Assembly: GCF_023208015.1 (NCBI RefSeq)
Contig: NZ_CP051627.1
Coordinates: 1,302,001 to 1,366,000 of the forward strand
From: Thermobifida alba
Lineage (GTDB): Bacteria; Actinomycetota; Actinomycetes; Streptosporangiales; Streptosporangiaceae
DNA: 64,000 nucleotides
Direction of reading: 5' to 3'
In this document: one piece after another, positions 4,000-26,445 of the stretch
Position numbering within the stretch: position 1 is the first letter of the stretch
Layout: each line of letters starts with the position of its first letter
Position numbers and translations under genes: made by a program
The notes under the pieces: generated by a model
Database searches by the model: none
What the model saw: only the letters and a program-made list of their open reading frames with translations
What the model was told of the DNA's origin: nothing

Positions 4000-4776
4000 C
4001 TACCCGCGTTCGCGGCCTTCCACCGCGCAGGGACGAAGACGCGGCCCGCCCGCGGGTCGGGCGTGCTGCTCGGCGAGGACCTTCCGCGGCGACGTGGCGG
4101 GCGTCGGCCGCCACCGCCGGACCGGTGGGCCGGTGGCAGGGAAGCCGGATGAGCGCGATCGACAGTGCGCGGCCGCGCACCCAGGTCGCCTCGTCTGCGT
4201 CCACCCCGTCACGGAAGACGCCGCGGGCGCGGGCGAGCAGGGGCCACCCCACGATCAGGGCCACGGCGGGGTCTTTCACACCTGCGGCCACGAAGCCGAC
4301 GACGGTACTCAGCCGGCCGTCGCGGACCAGCACGCCGCCGGGTGACAGGTCGGCGTGCCCCACGGGGCGGGGCCGTGCCAGAGGGCGCAGCACCTCCTCC
4401 CACACGGTGAGCGCCACGGCGGCGTCGCGGGCCGCCAGGGGAAAGCCACGGTCGGCGCAGGGCCCGTCCGAGGGGACGGCGCAGCGCGGTGACGAATCCC
4501 GCCCGGTCCCCGGCCGGGCCGACGGGGGCGTCGAGGCGGCCGAGGACCGGGGCCCCGTCCAGCCAGCGGTGGACCGCCCACGGCCGGGAGCGCCCCTGGG
4601 CGAGCAGGAGGGCGGCGGCGGGGCGGGGCAGCCGTACCACCCTGTCCTCCCCCAGCCGGTGGGCGGCGTTGCCGGTCCCCGTGGACTCCACCGGGGGCCG
4701 GGCAGGCCCGCCCGGAACTGTTCGGCGAGCAGTCCCCGCACCAGCGGAACGTCGACGTCGGCTCCCCCGGCATACA
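4000..4776 (-). pseudogene. Aminoglycoside phosphotransferase (APH)-family pseudogene
   Basis: Recognisable APH-family sequence is spread over different reading frames. It starts near the GTG at 4776 with 'DVDVPLVRGLLAEQF', shifts frame to 'STGTGNAAHRLGEDRVVRLP' and 'PWAVHRWLDGAPVLGRL', then shifts again to 'VGHADLSPGGVLVRDGRLS' and 'DADEATWVRGRALSIALI'. A further shift reaches the stop at 4000. The catalytic loop that should read HGDLxPGN is 'HADLSPGG', and the Mg-binding DFG-like segment is 'VGFVA', so the active site is lost. Several frameshifts plus loss of catalytic residues argue for true decay and not a sequencing error. Intact relatives phosphorylate small molecules or antibiotics. 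Confidence 0.75.
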
Positions 4777-12438: not shown

Positions 12439-12893
12439 TCACTTTTCAGTCTCGTCGACGTCGCTGTCGGGGGCGCCCAGCGGACGCAGCCCTTCGGGCA
12501 TCTCGGGCAGGGAGAAGGAGCGGCGGCCCAGCATGTTGATGTGCTTGCGGATGAACGGCGAGAGCCGCGCCACGTCTTCGTCGCGCACGTCGACCCCCTC
12601 GGCACGGACTCGGCACGGAGCTTGTCCAGGGCAGTGTTCGTGTAGCGGGTGTTGAACAGCACGACGGCGTTGAGGACCAGGCCCAGCGCGCCGAGTTGGT
12701 CCTCCATGCCCTCGTGGTAGCGCTGGTAGAGGTGGCCATGCTTGCCATGGAAGATAAGGCGGGCCAGGGCGTGGCGACCTTCCTGGAGGTTGGAGTGGGC
12801 CTTGATGGTGCGCCGGTAGCCGGATTCGTCGGCTAGGCGCAGGATGTGCAGGGTTTTGGGGATGCGGCCGAAGTGGGCGATGGCATCGCTCAT
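12439..12893 (-). mobile_element. Tn3-family transposase, C-terminal remnant
   Basis: Reading leftwards from 12893, 'GRIPKTLHILRLADESGYRR', 'AHSNLQEGRHALARLIFHG' and 'YRHEG/YHEGMEDQLGALGLVLN' give the strongly conserved C-terminal part of Tn3-family transposases, followed by 'LFNTRYTNTALDKLR'. A frameshift then moves the ending to another frame ('VRDEDVARLSPFIRKHINML', 'LPEMPEGLRPLGAPD'), which stops at 12439. Only about 150 of the usual ~1000 residues remain, so the element is dead. No resolvase or terminal inverted repeat was identified. The remnant abuts the truncated 5' end of the next gene, which suggests that insertion or deletion by the transposon damaged it. Confidence 0.82.
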
Positions 12894-16395: not shown

Positions 16396-16641
16396 GTCTG
16401 TTTTGTGATGATGTCTGGTTTGCGGTAAACAGGGCTTGCCCACCCACGTCGGCGCCGTTGTTCGACTTCCCGGTGTGTTCACCGATTCCCTGATAACAGC
16501 AAGGGCTTTTGGACGTACTGGAGGCCACCGGGCGTCGGGTTGCGTCGGGCGGGTCGGCACTGGAACTGTCGGATGGGTTCTTCCCGATCACCTGGTTCCG
16601 GGAGTGGGCGGTTGAGGCGGCTAAGAGGGCAGAATTGGAGC

Positions 16642-19275
16642 ATGGCGCCCCCTTCCTCTATGCCTCATCCCGGTGACGAGAACCCCTCTCTGTCCTCCCC
16701 GTCGGAGGAAGGAGAGGCTCGGGCTGCGGGCGGGGCCGACACCGCCCACGGGGACATCATTTCCACCGTCTACCGGGGCGACCACGTCGACCAGCGCGAC
16801 GCCCAAGCCCAGCGCGACGTCATCGGCCAACAGGTCAACAACGGGCCCCACTTCTACCTGTATCCGGAGCCCCCTGCGCCCCCCATGCACAATCCCGCTT
16901 TGCGGGAGGCTTTGGGAAGGCCGATCGGCCAGTGCGACCCTCATGATCTGGAGGTTCATCCGGCCCTGCAGGCCCCAAGTGTGCCGGGGGCGGCCGGTTC
17001 GGTGCCGCGGCGGGATGCGGCGCGGCTGCCCGTCTATGTGCGGCGGGCCCACGACGAGGAACTGGCGAGTGTCGTCGAGGACGCCGCGCGGGGGCGTAGT
17101 CGTATGGCCGTGCTGGTGGGGTCGTCGTCGACGGGGAAGACGCGGGCCTGCTGGGAGGCCATCCAACCCCTCGCCGAGCGGGGGTGGCGGTTGTGGCATC
17201 CGGTGGATCCGACCCGGGCCGAGGCCGCCCTGGCCGACCTGGACCACATCACCCCGCACACGGTGGTCTGGCTCAACGAGGCCCAGCACTACCTCGGCGC
17301 AGGTGGCGGGACGGGCGAGCGTGTGGCCACGGCCCTGCACACCCTCCTCACCGACCCCGACCGCGCCCCCGTGCTGGTGCTGGGCACGTTGTGGCTCGAC
17401 TACGCCCACACCTACACCCAACGCCCCGACCCAGGGCAGCCGGATGTGCACGCCCAGGCCCGGGCACTGCTGGCAGGCCGCCTGATCCACGTACCCGACG
17501 CCTTCGACCAGACCGCGCTGGCCGAGGCACACCGCCACGCCAAGACAGGGGACGGACAGTGGGCGCACGCCCTGGAACTCAGCCGACAGGGTCGGGTGGC
17601 CCAGGTGCTGGCCGGGGGACCGGCCCTGCTGGAGCGCTACCAGACCGCCCCACCCGCAGCACGCGCCCTGCTGGAGGCAGCCATGGACGCCCGCCGCCTG
17701 GGCGCAGGATTGCACCTGCCCCAGGAGTTTCTGGTGGAGGCGGCCGAGGACTACCTCACCGACGACGAACTCGCCGTCCTCGACGACGACTGGATCGACC
17801 ACAGCCTGGTCTACACCGGCCAGCCCGTGCACGGTAACCTCGCGCCCCTACGCAGAGTGCGCCCACGCCGCTCCCAGACCGGCCCCGCTTCTGGCACGGC
17901 GGGTCCGGTCTACCGGCTGGCCGACTACCTCGAACAACACGGCCGCCACCACCGGCGCGACCACTACCCGCCCGCCTCCTTCTGGCAGGCCGCCCACCGC
18001 CACCTCACCACCCCCGACGAACTACATACCCTGGCCAAAGCCGCCCACCGGCGCGGCCTGCTCAAGCACGCGGTCCGGCTCTACCACCGCGCGATCCTGG
18101 CCCACCACCCCCTCTCTGCCCACGGCTTGGTCAACCTGCTGTCGTCAGACACCGACCCCCACAACACCGGCGCCCACTGGACCGCCACCCACGCCCCCCT
18201 CACCGACCCGGGCGGCGTCGCCTTCCTGCTGGAGGCGCTGCACGAGGTCGGGCGGGAGGAGGCGGTGCGGGAGTTGTTGGCGCGCAACCCCGCCGCCCAC
18301 GTCGACCTCACCGCCCCGGGCGGCGTCGCCTTCCTGCTGCGGGTGCTGCACGAGGTCGGGCGGGAGGAGGCGGTGCGGGAGTTGTTGGCGCGCAACCCCG
18401 CCGCCCACGTCGACCTCACCGCCCCGGGCGGCGTCGCCTTCCTGCTGGAGGCGCTGCGCCAAGCGGGGCAGGCTGGGGCGGTGCGGGCGCTGTTGGCGCG
18501 CAACCCCGCCGCCCACGTCGACCTCACCGCCCCGGGCGGCGTCGCCTTCCTGCTGCGGGTGCTGCACGAGGTCGGGCGGGAGGAGGCGGTGCGGGCGCTG
18601 TTGGCGCGCAACCCCGCCGCCCACGCCCCCCTCACCGACCCGTATGGCGTCGCCCGTCTGCTGGAGGTGCTGCACGAGGTCGGGCGGGAGGAGGCGGTGC
18701 GGGCGCTGTTGGCGCGCAACCCCGCCGCCCACGCCCCCCTCACCGACCCGTATGGCGTCGCCCGTCTGCTGGAGGTGCTGCACGGGGTGGGGCGGGAGGA
18801 GGCGGTGCAGGCGTTGGCCTCCCGCACCGCCGCCCACGCCCCCCTCACCCACCCGGACGGCGTCGCCCGCCTGCTGGAGGTGCTGCACGGGGTGGGGCGG
18901 GAGGAGGCGGTGCAGGCGCTGGCCTCCCGCACCGCCGCCCACGCCCCCCTCACCCACCCGGACGGCGTCGCCCGCCTGCTGCGGGTGCTGCACGGGGTGG
19001 GGCGGGAGGAGGCGGTGCAGGCGCTGGCCTCCCGCACCGCCGCCCACGCCCCCCTCACCGACCCGTATGGCGTCGCCCGCCTGCTGGAGGCGCTGCGCCA
19101 AGCGGGGCAGGCTGGGGCGGTTGAGAGGTTGCAACGTCGGGCGCTGGACGCCGGTGCGCTTGGGAGGACTCCCGCGTTCCTTCAGCCGTACGGGCGGGAG
19201 CCTGACGGCACGCCTGCCGCGGCGTGGACCTGGGAGGAGGTAGTCGCGGAGGACGCTCCGCCCGCGGCCCTGTAG
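16642..19275 (+). CDS. P-loop NTPase with nine-copy C-terminal 36-residue repeat array (STAND-like)
   Basis: An 877-residue protein paralogous to the preceding gene product in its NTPase core. Walker A is GSSSTGKT (about 160-167), followed by 'RACWEAI' (compare 'RAAWTAV' next door). A 'TVVWLNEAQHYL' Walker B-like strand follows at about 207-218. The N-terminus is low-complexity with 'VYRGDHVDQRDAQAQRDVIG', apparently the counterpart of the neighbour's Gly-x-Val strand, but it has no membrane helix. Residues 517-835 are nine tandem helical repeats (unit like 'HAPLTDPYGVARLLEVLHEV'). The ATG at 16642 is chosen because family-like sequence begins there, although the SD (AGAGGG or TTGGAG) is poorly placed. 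The repeats are probably a ligand- or protein-binding scaffold. Function is unknown. Confidence 0.75.
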   Translation: MAPPSSMPHPGDENPSLSSPSEEGEARAAGGADTAHGDIISTVYRGDHVDQRDAQAQRDVIGQQVNNGPHFYLYPEPPAPPMHNPALREALGRPIGQCDPHDLEVHPALQAPSVPGAAGSVPRRDAARLPVYVRRAHDEELASVVEDAARGRSRMAVLVGSSSTGKTRACWEAIQPLAERGWRLWHPVDPTRAEAALADLDHITPHTVVWLNEAQHYLGAGGGTGERVATALHTLLTDPDRAPVLVLGTLWLDYAHTYTQRPDPGQPDVHAQARALLAGRLIHVPDAFDQTALAEAHRHAKTGDGQWAHALELSRQGRVAQVLAGGPALLERYQTAPPAARALLEAAMDARRLGAGLHLPQEFLVEAAEDYLTDDELAVLDDDWIDHSLVYTGQPVHGNLAPLRRVRPRRSQTGPASGTAGPVYRLADYLEQHGRHHRRDHYPPASFWQAAHRHLTTPDELHTLAKAAHRRGLLKHAVRLYHRAILAHHPLSAHGLVNLLSSDTDPHNTGAHWTATHAPLTDPGGVAFLLEALHEVGREEAVRELLARNPAAHVDLTAPGGVAFLLRVLHEVGREEAVRELLARNPAAHVDLTAPGGVAFLLEALRQAGQAGAVRALLARNPAAHVDLTAPGGVAFLLRVLHEVGREEAVRALLARNPAAHAPLTDPYGVARLLEVLHEVGREEAVRALLARNPAAHAPLTDPYGVARLLEVLHGVGREEAVQALASRTAAHAPLTHPDGVARLLEVLHGVGREEAVQALASRTAAHAPLTHPDGVARLLRVLHGVGREEAVQALASRTAAHAPLTDPYGVARLLEALRQAGQAGAVERLQRRALDAGALGRTPAFLQPYGREPDGTPAAAWTWEEVVAEDAPPAAL
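18190..19146 (+). repeat. Nine tandem copies of a 108/105-bp coding repeat
   Basis: Copies 1-5 are 108 bp (36 residues) and copies 6-8 are 105 bp, with the ending 'LLARNPAA' replaced by 'LASRTAA'. Copy 9 is the diverged last unit. Each begins His-(Ala/Val)-(Pro/Asp)-Leu-Thr and continues 'GVA.LL..L...G...AV'. Adjacent copies are almost identical in DNA, including silent positions, which points to recent duplication or gene conversion. Copies 3 and 9 share an unusual variant ('LRQAGQAGAV') that breaks the simple order and suggests shuffling. Confidence 0.92.
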
Positions 19276-19801: not shown

Positions 19802-19817
19802 ACGAATAAGAGGGGTC

Positions 19818-21355
19818 GTGTCGGCGTCGACAACACAGGTACTCGTGGTCGGAGCGGGACCGGTGGGGCTGACTCTGGCCTGCGCCCTGGCCGCCCAGAA
19901 GGTCGAGGTCCGGGTGGTGGACCGGGCCGCACGACCGGCCACCACGTCACGGGCCAACATCCTGCACGCGCGCGGCGTGGAGGTCCTGGCCCGCCTGGAC
20001 GCCCTGGGCGACCTGCCCGAACGCTCCCTCGCACCGCTGGGCATGACCATGCACGTCGGCGACCGGCCCCTGGCCACGGTGCGCTTCGCCCCCCTGCGGG
20101 GACAGTCCACGCAGGCACTGTTCGTCTCCCAGGCCGACGTGGAGGAACAACTGCGGCGCCGACTGGGCGCCCTGGGCGTCGAGGTCGAGTGGAACCGCCC
20201 CCTCGACGGACTGGAGGTCCACGAGCACGGCGTGACCGCGCACCTCGACGCACCCGACTGCACGCCGACTGGGTGGTCGGCTGCGACGGCGCGCACAGCA
20301 CGGTCCGCGACCTGGCCGCGATCGACTTTCCCGGCGTCTCCGTCGGCGAGCGTTTCCTGCTCGCCGACGTCCACGTCGACTGGGACCGCAGCCGCGACGT
20401 CTCGGCGGGCTGGTTCCACCGCGACGGCATCCTGATGGCCATGCCGATGCCCTCCCCCGGCCAGACCCGCCGCGAGACCGGCACCCTGTGGCGGCTCATG
20501 GCCGAGGTCACCGCCGCCCCCGGCGAGCCGCACCTCACCCAGCAGCAGATCCTCGACCGCTTCGAGCAACTGGTCCCCCACCGCAGCGGACAGCACGCCC
20601 GCCTGGGCGAAGCCGTGTGGACCTCGGTGTTCCGCATCCACCGGCGCCTGGCCGCCGACTACCGCCGCGGCCGCGTCCTGCTGGCCGGGGACGCCGCCCA
20701 CGTCCACAGCCCCATCGGCGGACAGGGCATGAACACCGGCATCGGCGACGCCGAGAACCTCGCCTGGAAACTCGCGCTCGTCGTCCACGGCCGCGCCGAC
20801 GCCCGCCTGCTCGACACCTACACCGCCGAACGCCGCCCCCTGGCCACCTGGATCCTCAACGCCACCACGGCCAACACCCGCATCCTGCTGGGCGAGACCC
20901 TCCCGGCCCGCCTGCTGCGCGACCGGATCATGCTGCCGCTGCTCAATCTGCCCGCCATGCAACGCGCCGCCACCCGCAGCGCCTCCCAACTGGACGTCAC
21001 CTACCGCAACGGCCCCCTGGGCGCACGCCGCGGCCGCAGCCCACACCCCGGCGACCGGATCGGCGATCTGGCCTGCCTGCGCGCCGATGCCACCCCCACC
21101 CGGCTGCACGCCGAACTCGGCTCCCGCTGGGCCCTGCTGGCGCCGCAGGCGACCGGGACGGTCGAGGAACTGGCCACGACAGCGCGCGCCCACCTCGGCG
21201 ACGACGTCGGCGTCCTGCGACCGCAGGACGCCGTGAAACACGGGGACACGCTGCTGGTCCGCCCCGACGGCCACCTCGGCTGGCGCGGCCGCACCCCCGC
21301 CGACCTGCGACGCTGGCTGACCGAGACACTGGGCTGCACGGAGAAGAGCAGATGA
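19818..21355 (+). pseudogene. FAD-dependent aromatic monooxygenase (PF01494 type), single frameshift
   Basis: The GTG at 19818 (AAGAGGGG upstream) opens a frame with the dinucleotide-binding 'VLVVGAGPVGLTLACALA', then 'TTSRANILHARGVEVL'. Near 20252 the frame is lost by one base; the continuation has 'WVVGCDGAHSTVRDLA' and the FAD-ribityl motif 'GDAAHVHSPIGGQGMNTGIG'. Both halves together give a normal-length flavoprotein hydroxylase of about 510 residues with the C-terminal thioredoxin-like region. Such enzymes hydroxylate phenolic or polyketide substrates, or inactivate antibiotics. The two frames are otherwise undamaged, so either a fresh mutation or a sequencing indel is possible. The stop overlaps the TetR start (ATGA). 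Confidence 0.82.
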
Positions 21356-22407: not shown

Positions 22408-22472
22408 TTGAACCCTGGCACAGGACAGGGGATAGGACCACACTGTGAATCACATTGGCGATGAGTGATTCA
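22408..22472 (+). promoter_or_regulatory. Promoter and dyad operator of the XRE-ImmA-PIN operon
   Basis: TTGAAC (22408-22413) and GATAGG/TAGGAC (22431-22438) make a possible -35/-10. Immediately downstream, TGAATCAC (22446-22453) and GTGATTCA (22465-22472) are perfect inverted 8-mers, 11 bases apart. The left arm is itself inside the palindrome TGTGAATCACA. This is a natural binding site for the XRE protein encoded first in the operon. Repeats are seen; the use is inferred. Confidence 0.5.
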
Positions 22473-22485
22473 GACTGGTGGGGCG

Positions 22486-22812
22486 GTGACGGCAGTGGCA
22501 GATATCGGTGCGCGGATCGAGCGGGCCCGCGCCGCAGCGGGTCTGAGCCAGCGAGCCCTTGCCGACGCCACAGGTATCTCGCAGTCCACCCTGTCTCGGA
22601 TTATCTCCGGAGACCGGGTGGCGAAGATGCCGGAGCTCGTGGCGATCGCATGGGAGACCGGACACACGGTTGCCCAACTCACCGGAATCGGATCGGTGGC
22701 TGAACGGGTGCAGTGCGCGGCCCGCGCCACCAACGACATGCGTCAGACGCTGCTGAGCTTCCTGGAACTCGACGCCTACCTGGACGACCAGGCTATTCCC
22801 GCCACGGTCTGA
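22486..22812 (+). CDS. XRE-family helix-turn-helix regulator (antitoxin/repressor-like)
   Basis: A 108-residue protein whose N-terminal 60 residues form a standard HTH_3 domain: 'IERARAAAGLSQRALADATG' then 'SQSTLSRIISGDR'. The C-terminal region is short and helical. A GTG at 22486 is chosen because GGTGGGG precedes it; GTG 22465 and 22495 are alternatives. It is the first gene of a three-gene cluster with an ImmA/IrrE metalloprotease and a PIN-like protein. In such pairs the protease cleaves or inactivates the XRE repressor, so this is probably an autorepressor acting at the dyad just upstream. Confidence 0.88.
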   Translation: MTAVADIGARIERARAAAGLSQRALADATGISQSTLSRIISGDRVAKMPELVAIAWETGHTVAQLTGIGSVAERVQCAARATNDMRQTLLSFLELDAYLDDQAIPATV

Positions 22813-22829
22813 AACGGAGTCGAAGAACT

Positions 22830-23699
22830 GTGAGCGCCGAAGCCGAAGGCCGCGCTGCTGCCGAGCGGTTCCGTAGAGAACAGCACCTGGGCGCGCAGCC
22901 GCTGGGGGACCTTGTGGCGATCATCGAGCAGGCCACGGGGGTCGACGTGGCTGTGCTCGACGCCGACCAGGACCAACACGGCCTGACGATGCGGGACCCG
23001 CAACGCGACGCCGTTTTCGTCGGTGTCGCGCGCACCCGCAAACCGATGCGGCAGCGCAGCACTCTCGCCCACGAACTCGGCCACATCCTGTTCGGGGACA
23101 TGACGGACAGCGCAAGGATCGCTTGGAAAGACCGCTCTCCTGCAGAAATCCGAGCGGATGCCTTCGCACGCCACCTGCTTATCCCACTTGAGGGCCTACG
23201 CGGATTCCTCGAGGAGCGAAGATCGCTGACCCAGTCGGTGCTCTCCGAAGTCGTTCAGCGGTTCCTGGTCTCGCCCATGATCGCCGCGATCGCGCTCCAC
23301 CAGGCCGGGTGCATCGACACCTCCACCAAAGAAGAGTGGAAAACCCTCACCACACCACAGTTGGCCACCCGATTCGGGTGGAGTGATCAATACCGCGCTC
23401 TGCAAGACGAATCCAATCGACGCAGGGCGCCACAACGGTTGCTTGCCCGAGCGATCAGAGGCTACGTCGAAGGGGTGCTGTCCGCACAGGCCATCGCCAC
23501 GCTTCGCGGTATCACCCGGCAGGAGGCTGAAGCGGAACTGCGGGAAGCGGGCGTGGTGCCCGCCGAACGGCCAGTGGCCTGGGCTGATCCAGCCGAACTG
23601 CCAGATGTCGGAGTGGACCTCGCAGCTTTGGACGAGGCCCTTGACGCACCTGACCACGATGACAATCCCCCTGGCATGACAACGAGAGGGAGCGGATGA
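22830..23699 (+). CDS. ImmA/IrrE-family metallo-endopeptidase
   Basis: A 289-residue protein (COG2856 type) with zinc motif HELGH at residues 81-85, within 'STLAHELGHILFGD'. The downstream acidic residue is in the usual helix 'RADAFARHLLIPLEGL'. The C-terminal half is helical and includes 'SVLSEVVQRFLVSPMIAAIA', the HTH-like segment common in the family. Members cleave XRE-type repressors, as ImmA does in ICEBs1, or respond to stress. The GTG start at 22830 has GGAG ten bases upstream and follows the XRE gene by 17 bases. Its stop overlaps the start of the PIN-like gene (ATGA), so all three are co-translated. Confidence 0.92.
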   Translation: MSAEAEGRAAAERFRREQHLGAQPLGDLVAIIEQATGVDVAVLDADQDQHGLTMRDPQRDAVFVGVARTRKPMRQRSTLAHELGHILFGDMTDSARIAWKDRSPAEIRADAFARHLLIPLEGLRGFLEERRSLTQSVLSEVVQRFLVSPMIAAIALHQAGCIDTSTKEEWKTLTTPQLATRFGWSDQYRALQDESNRRRAPQRLLARAIRGYVEGVLSAQAIATLRGITRQEAEAELREAGVVPAERPVAWADPAELPDVGVDLAALDEALDAPDHDDNPPGMTTRGSG

Positions 23700-24308
23700 G
23701 CCACCGGCCGATCATCGACGCCGGTCCCGGACTGAACTTCCTCTCGATTCACCAGGAGTCTCCTCATCGGAGTCTTGGGGAGATTGAGTGCTCCGGAGGC
23801 TGTGCAGAACGAGGTGTTCACAAAGTCGCAGCAGGACGAGCGTTTCCGTCCTGCTGCGACGGTCTGGCGGAAGCTAACCCCCGAATGGCTGCGAGTTCTG
23901 TCCGATGACGAGACACCCGAACTCGCAGCCGTGGTCCAGCGCATCACCTACCAACCTTTGGCCGAACGGTTGAAGCGCCCCAAGGACCTGGGCGAGGTCA
24001 TGGTCATCGCTCACGCGGTCGTCGCCGCCGAAGCAGGCCAAGAGGTGACCGTCCTCATCGATGACGGGCAAGGGGCACAGACCGCAACCGCAGAGATCAA
24101 CCGTCTTGAACGGATCCGACGTAGCGGGCGTCCAGTGGGATCGATCAAACTGGTCAGCACGCTGACTGTCCTGGAGCGTGCGGTGCAGAAAGAGTACATT
24201 GCGGGCAGGGCAGATATGCGTCGTCTCTACCAGCGACTGCGTGAACTGGATGACGGCCTACCCCCCATCGAGGCAACCAGTCTCTTGTCGCCTGCTCTCT
24301 GGACTTGA
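23696..24308 (+). pseudogene. PIN-like-domain protein of the XRE-ImmA operon, one frameshift
   Basis: The ATG at 23696 overlaps the protease stop and opens 'MSHRPIIDAGPGLNFLSIHQ', a PIN-like start in which the Asp is a metal ligand. After residue 21 the frame is lost (about 23759). The continuation 'LLIGVLGRLSAPEAVQNEVF' and then 'DLGEVMVIAHAVVAAEAGQE' and 'VLIDDGQGA' carries the other acidic residues expected of a PIN-like nuclease fold. It runs to the stop at 24308. Joining the frames gives about 204 residues. PIN-like domains are RNA-cleaving toxins in many toxin-antitoxin systems. Here the putative toxin is either inactivated or a sequencing indel is present. Confidence 0.7.
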
Positions 24309-25354: not shown

Positions 25355-25744
25355 ATGTCGAATCAAGAGAGCGCGGTCGAAGCGGCCGCCCCGGTCCCCG
25401 GCACGGTCGCGGACTGCTGTCCCGGACTGCTGACCACCCCGTTGGGCGAGAAGGAAGCCGCGGAACTGGCCCGGGTCTTCAAGGCCCTGGGCGACCCGGT
25501 ACGGCTGCGACTGCTGTCGATGATCGCCTCCCGGGCAGGGGGCGAGGTGTGCGTGTGCGACCTGACCCCCGCCTTCGACCTGTCCCAGCCCACCATCTCC
25601 CACCACCTCAAGCTGCTGCGCGAGGCCGGGCTCATCGCCGCCGAGCGGCGCGGCACCTGGGTGTACTACCGGCTGATCCCCGAGACCACCGACCGCCTGG
25701 CGCGGATCCTGACCCGCCGCACCGCAACGGCGGACAGGGCGTGA
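25355..25744 (+). CDS. arsR: ArsR-family metalloregulatory repressor
   Basis: A 129-residue winged-helix repressor. The DNA-recognition helix is in 'FDLSQPTISHHLKLLREAGL' and the wing in 'RRGTWVYYRLIPE'. The metal site typical of arsenic sensors is present in 'EVCVCDLTPAF' (Cys-Val-Cys), with an additional N-terminal pair in 'ADCCPG'. It should release DNA on binding As(III) or a similar soft metal. It is divergent from arsI, overlaps the remnant of the ACR3 pump gene by four bases, and is upstream of arsC, so an ancestral arsR-acr3-arsC operon is likely. Confidence 0.94.
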   Translation: MSNQESAVEAAAPVPGTVADCCPGLLTTPLGEKEAAELARVFKALGDPVRLRLLSMIASRAGGEVCVCDLTPAFDLSQPTISHHLKLLREAGLIAAERRGTWVYYRLIPETTDRLARILTRRTATADRA

Positions 25745-26042
25745 GCCTCCCCACCGGATCGACCACCAGGGCCGACGCCCCGCCTCTGCCGGTGCTGGAC
25801 CGCTGCCCACCGGTTCGGATTCTGACCGCGATGGCCGCCGGCCCGGTCCTGGGGACGATGCCGGTGTACTGCGTGCCCCTGTGAGGGGCGGCCCCGGGCG
25901 GCCATCCCGACCCTTCATCGAGGCGGGCAGCGGCGTCGAGCTCGCGATTCGGGCCCCGGCCGGGGGTCCGCTCGTCGAGGTGCCCGTCCTGGCCGCCCAC
26001 TGTTTCTTCCCCGACGAAAGGCCCTGCTTTGTCGAACGGTGA
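25741..26042 (+). pseudogene. ACR3 arsenite efflux pump: N- and C-terminal scraps only
   Basis: The GTG at 25741 overlaps the arsR stop (GTGA). It gives about 47 residues containing 'LPVLDRCPPVRILTAMAAG', which matches the usual ACR3 N-terminus (LDR.LPVWI..AMA.G), before a stop at 25881-25883. Shortly after, 'IEAGSGVELAIRAPAGGPLV' and 'EVPVL' match the C-terminal ACR3 helix ('..GPLVEVPVL..') and run to a stop at 26042. The roughly 280 residues between, including the transport Cys, are gone. An internal deletion followed by drift is the simplest explanation. Similarity is by recall; the match is short but is supported by both the order and the position in the operon. Confidence 0.68.
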
Positions 26043-26445
26043 GATCCCGCAGGTGCTGTTCGTGTGCGTGCACAACGCCGGACGCTCCCAGATGGCCGCC
26101 GCGTTCCTGCACCACCTGGGCGCCGGAAGGGTACGGGTGCGCTCGGCCGGGTCAGCCCCGGCCGACGCGGTCAACCCCGCCGTGGTCCAGGCGATGGCCG
26201 AGGTCGGCATCGACATCGCCGCCAACGTCCCCAGAGCCCTGACCGCGGAGGAGGTGGACGCCTCAGACGTGGTGGTCACCATGGGGTGCGGCGACGCCTG
26301 CCCGTTCCTCCCAGGCAAGCGCTACCTGGACTGGGACCTGCCCGACCCCGCAGGCCAGGGGGTCGAGGCGGTGCGGCCCATCCGCGACCGCATCCGCGCC
26401 CACGTCGTAGAACTGCTGGAGGAGTTGGTTCCACCGCACCGGTGA
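26029..26445 (+). CDS. arsC: Arsenate reductase, low-molecular-weight phosphatase type
   Basis: A 138-residue protein of the LMW-PTPase fold. The P-loop with catalytic Cys is in 'LFVCVHNAGRSQMAAAFLHH'. A second Cys pair is in 'TMGCGDACPFLPGKRYLDWD', the pattern of actinobacterial arsenate reductases that resolve through cysteine relay or mycothiol. It reduces As(V) to As(III), normally for export by ACR3. The start is a TTG at 26029 with GAAAGG upstream, lying inside the pump remnant's last codons. With the pump destroyed, reduction alone would not give export unless another pump exists elsewhere in the genome. Confidence 0.9.
   Translation: MSNGEIPQVLFVCVHNAGRSQMAAAFLHHLGAGRVRVRSAGSAPADAVNPAVVQAMAEVGIDIAANVPRALTAEEVDASDVVVTMGCGDACPFLPGKRYLDWDLPDPAGQGVEAVRPIRDRIRAHVVELLEELVPPHR

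Follow-up and report, generated by a model that had tools for sequence, protein, structure and literature searches.

Three-component toxin-antitoxin systems consisting of an XRE regulator, a COG2856 protein and a PIN or RelE protein were proposed by Makarova et al. in 2009 (PMC2701414), and the same paper also predicts COG2886 (UPF0175) proteins to be the antitoxin HTH proteins of PIN genes. In RosmerTA, an ImmA protein is the antitoxin, and PIN-like partners, namely ImmA-PIN pairs, were noted as well (Ernits et al. 2023, PMC10440598). Here, we analyzed a window of 64,000 nucleotides from Thermobifida alba, by which we mean the whole stretch of DNA under study, and in it an XRE gene followed by an ImmA/IrrE gene and a third gene. 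A preliminary description of this DNA had regarded an XRE-protease-nuclease trio as little described; given the 2009 proposal and the ImmA-PIN pairs of 2023, the arrangement is therefore of an already known kind. What is new here is that the protease ends in an antitoxin-like tail, that the genes are preceded by a perfectly conserved DNA switch and that the putative toxin gene is interrupted in this strain. With moderate confidence, we read the locus as a RosmerTA-like three-gene toxin-antitoxin switch, made up of an XRE repressor, an ImmA protein with a predicted antitoxin tail and a putative PIN RNase.

Like the trios of 2009, as far as the accessible part of that paper presents them, this family has the same three neighboring components and occurs on plasmids; in those trios protease and repressor are often fused, but in our main clade XRE and ImmA are separate genes, and the UPF0175-like tail and the conserved N13 operator are features of the present family. 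With RosmerTA (RmrA/RmrT), an antiphage system, it has in common an HTH plus ImmA protease antitoxin adjoining a toxin gene. Indeed, the PADLOC RmrA models match both the fused proteins of two of our loci (L030 and L031, the latter with an E-value of 1.1e-21) and the ImmA protein of the window (1.6e-14), where XRE is separate, while the third protein had no match to an RmrT model and only a weak one to PDC-S70. The window type thus differs from RosmerTA in its split-off XRE and in a tail which is UPF0175-like, unlike the phage-type tails that we compared. The pairs of UPF0175 (COG2886) and DUF3368 genes also combine an antitoxin-type HTH with a PIN partner, antitoxin first and genes overlapping or adjacent, but here the HTH is a tail fused to a metalloprotease, a separate XRE repressor is present and, at about 204 aa, the putative toxin is longer. 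ImmR-ImmA of ICEBs1 and DdrO-IrrE, finally, consist of the same XRE repressor and COG2856 protease, yet they switch mobile-element or DNA-repair genes and not an adjacent PIN gene.

Gene organization and conservation

The three genes form a single operon on the plus strand, downstream of a dyad, as had been described from the first inspection of the DNA. The XRE-family repressor gene (22486..22812) encodes a Cro/C1-type HTH protein (HTH_3, E-value 8.7e-12, 45.3 bits against a curated Pfam cutoff of 23). Its open frame reaches upstream to a GTG at 22465, but since this codon is part of the operator and some relatives do not have it in frame, as a comparison of the upstream regions revealed, the start is likely the GTG at 22486. 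The second gene (22830..23699) encodes an ImmA/IrrE-type metallopeptidase (M78, COG2856) of 289 aa, matching Peptidase_M78 above the Pfam cutoff with an E-value of 1e-14, so that the protease read from its HELGH motif is borne out; in this zinc motif (residues 81-85, 23070..23084) H81, E82 and H85 are invariant among 21 homologues, as is the downstream glutamate E106. The ATG of the third gene at 23696 overlaps the stop codon of ImmA by 4 nt (ATGA), and both this overlap and the gene order were kept in 23 of 26 loci in which they were compared. A single contig of 4.9 Mb makes up the genome, and the locus occurs in it once.

The trio is conserved across actinobacteria, a check that the preliminary description had proposed: of 29 distinct related loci that we compared, from chromosomes and megaplasmids, 23 have all parts intact. 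Within the order, 26 of 299 genomes contained a match to a profile of the third protein, and tblastn revealed homologues of its gene on megaplasmids of Rhodococcus, Pseudonocardia and Arthrobacter. The evolutionary distances of ImmA and the third protein are strongly correlated (r 0.97, Mantel p 0.0005), and dN/dS lies at about 0.1-0.25 in most pairs for all three genes, with one ImmA pair at 0.37; purifying selection acts on all of them. In the distant relatives L030 and L031, XRE, ImmA and tail are fused into one protein of 406-415 aa, followed by a PIN-like gene. Two genomes of the same genus lacking the trio have no continuous flanks in common, and an empty site could therefore not be defined. 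In the phage collection, a distant PIN-like protein was without match; a viral contig (L040) bears a homologue of the third gene at its end.

Five of the 29 loci (the window, L006, L017, L036 and L037) combine intact XRE and ImmA genes with a disrupted third gene, and all five disruptions differ from each other, comprising frame changes at varied places, a nonsense codon and a deletion. We count this repeated loss in favor of a toxin switch. The reverse was seen once, in the Marinactinospora locus L002, which has an intact third gene but neither XRE nor most of ImmA. Such a gene without its partners is not predicted by a strict antitoxin role, unless it is silent, and together with the deduction of the toxin role from sequence it speaks for another reading, that of a regulatory stress module whose XRE/ImmA switch would control an enzyme which processes RNA without being toxic. 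We regard this as quite improbable, as the mobile and patchy distribution of the family, including plasmids, the losses that repeatedly hit only the third gene and the pairing of UPF0175 with DUF3368 argue against it.

Remnants are visible at several places. In L002 (4804-5549), the intact third gene stands beside the last 44 codons of ImmA only, without XRE, and two Rhodococcus opacus plasmids (L127 and L128) carry matching remnants of ImmA and the third gene at about 2076-2773, with no XRE match.

Operator and promoter

Upstream of XRE lies the dyad that had been taken for an operator, with the left half-site TGAATCA at 22446..22452 and the right half-site TGATTCA at 22466..22472. Of 28 visible upstream regions, 25 contain TGAATCA-N13-TGATTCA without deviation at any of the 14 half-site bases; the two fused loci L030 and L031 have a spacer of N12, and by reading of its sequence L043 has N12 and one mismatch. 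Among the 25 rows, mean column conservation is 100% in the half-sites, against 49% in the spacer and 47% in the 30 columns upstream, where the 100% is partly given by construction, as the rows were picked by exact match with three loci excluded, and some rows are closely related to one another. The dyad occurs only once in the whole 4.9 Mb genome, and its conservation and uniqueness are far beyond chance. Because of this uniqueness, XRE is probably dedicated to its own operon. Directly before the left half-site, 24 of 25 aligned upstream regions show TANNNT, the window being the sole exception with the -10-like CACACT (22439..22444).

The third protein

The profile of the third-protein family matched a DUF3368 profile with a probability of 98.1% (hhalign, E-value 7.9e-14, 143 columns), while none of 200 column shuffles exceeded 5.7% and the profile in reverse gave 0.3%. 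The DUF3368 profile was built from ten plasmid-encoded DUF3368 proteins, whose records were fetched with a consensus-like query used for the fetching only. D8, E40, E101 and D123 do not vary among the 25 rows and by inspection align with the acidic residues of DUF3368, a family which we take to be a member of the PIN superfamily; in addition, the Rhodococcus homologues are named "PIN domain-containing protein" by NCBI. The Pfam search, on the other hand, returned no PIN or DUF3368 match for this divergent protein, and searches of NCBIfam and of PDB sequences returned no PIN match, which means that its PIN-likeness rests on the profile-profile comparison. The AlphaFold models, computed from inputs of 5-6 rows, were poor (pLDDT 62 and 51), and no PIN structure was retrieved by Foldseek and VIA-align with the model of the third protein (pLDDT 62, N-terminal strand unmodelled). 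The earlier proposal of a PIN-like protein is supported by the DUF3368 profiles. As VapC-type PIN proteins of the relatives match at 6.5%, we rejected a VapC-type membership in favor of the DUF3368 branch. Taken from sequence comparison, the third protein is probably a DUF3368-type PIN toxin and a predicted RNase.

The C-terminal tail of the ImmA protein

The preliminary description missed that the protease carries a UPF0175-like antitoxin tail (residues 206-242, 23445..23555). Pfam UPF0175 (PF03683) matched residues 204-243 with an E-value of 0.0018 and 18.4 bits, which is below the curated cutoff of 27.9. In hhalign, the tail matched a profile of UPF0175 proteins encoded directly before DUF3368 genes with a probability of 85.7% (E-value 5.4e-6, score 33.7, 37 columns), while 200 shuffles gave at most 1.5% and a top score of 15.3. 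Crossed comparisons, in which the tail was set against DUF3368 and both the protease domain and the third protein against UPF0175, yielded 0.1-0.5%. On plasmids, UPF0175 genes directly precede DUF3368 genes, and in a genome of the same genus the sole UPF0175 match is the ImmA tail located within the trio. We rejected the idea that every XRE-ImmA protein ends in a UPF0175 tail, the C-termini of the phage-type ones matching at 4.3%.

Since UPF0175 antitoxins are the partners of DUF3368 toxins, the protease probably carries an antitoxin; the match suggests that the ImmA protein itself may be the antitoxin by way of this tail, and the natural reading would be that the modules of a known toxin/antitoxin pair were joined to an ImmA switch. 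We count the shortness of the match and its position under the Pfam cutoff against the switch model, in which the antitoxin assignment is the least certain step and L002 the main contrary observation. A rival explanation follows the 2009 proposal, with XRE as antitoxin or repressor, ImmA as nothing but the protease that destroys XRE, and the tail serving as a structural HTH or for the docking of a substrate rather than for restraining a toxin. The precedents of ImmA/ImmR and IrrE/DdrO and the strong conservation of the XRE C-terminus in the relatives agree with it, but the tail matches UPF0175 specifically and not XRE (0.9%), and Ernits et al. (2023) report that the ImmA protein is confirmed as the antitoxin in RosmerTA, so we hold this explanation to be unlikely.

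For the toxin-antitoxin switch which we favor, we infer the following course. From footprint and position, XRE would bind TGAATCA-N13-TGATTCA just 3' of the -10 box and repress its own operon. The ImmA protein, a predicted zinc protease joined to a UPF0175-type tail, would bind with this tail to the DUF3368-type RNase encoded by the overlapping third gene and silence it, a binding suggested by the homology of both partners. A trigger, e.g., phage infection or DNA damage, would set off the protease domain, which by analogy to ImmA/ImmR and IrrE/DdrO may cleave XRE, alter the complex or do both, whereby expression of the operon would rise and the RNase would be freed to act. In concrete molecular terms, the trio predicted in 2009 would then have its antitoxin on the protease, with an operator defined to single bases. 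If this is true, one could tell from the C-terminal tail of an ImmA protein which toxin it guards. More tentatively, in such protease-antitoxin fusions exchangeable C-terminal tails on XRE/ImmA proteins may decide which toxin is held, with the UPF0175 tail as the module for DUF3368 PIN proteins, so that tail type would predict toxin type across RosmerTA-like systems. The small and intact trios present in Nocardiopsis and on Rhodococcus plasmids open the model to direct testing.

Interruption of the third gene

In the window, the third gene is split into a first fragment with the PIN aspartate at residue 8 (23696..23758; 95% identity to residues 1-21 of the intact homologue L004) and a second fragment with the body of the putative DUF3368-type toxin, including Glu40, Glu101 and Asp123 (23760..24308; 78% identity to L004). 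Comparison with the relatives, which keep a single frame here, places the frame change at 23757..23760, about where the preliminary description had set it, i.e., after residue 21. Programmed frameshifting was rejected, as the intact relatives need none. Past the break, dN/dS is still low (0.13-0.18), and the frame change is therefore either recent or an error. About 3.5 kb upstream, an FAD-dependent monooxygenase gene (19815-21352) is split between frames near 20255, with FAD_binding_3 positions 2-137 and 148-346 (Pfam) lying in two successive frames, and is a pseudogene or reflects an error in the sequence; with this neighboring gene split too, local decay and sequence error are both possible.

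A sequencing or assembly error, with the trio intact in the organism, would concern this copy only and would be compatible with our reading of the family as a toxin-antitoxin switch. The second split gene and the low dN/dS past the break argue for such an error; the site itself has no homopolymer, the same gene is differently disrupted in the four other loci, and the window lacks TANNNT too, which leaves an error a possible though somewhat doubtful explanation. The two differences of the window from its relatives, in the frame of the third gene and in the -10 box, are in keeping with a disarmed copy. Provided that the sequence is correct, the switch of this strain, with its putative toxin gene interrupted and its promoter box degenerate, is probably disarmed.

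Other features of the window

A scan of G+C content by codon position revealed two more abrupt frame changes within coding sequence, at 4481-4482 and 12601-12602. At 16540-19275, the window encodes a P-loop ATPase-like protein of 911 aa without a clear match to a defence family, whose C-terminal part consists of 8.6 near-identical tandem repeats of 108 bp (18182-19096, 90% matches); it might be a repeat-variable sensor. Downstream of the operon, at 25355-26445, frames resembling an ArsR-like regulator and an arsenate reductase, named from their translations, apparently form an arsenic cluster.
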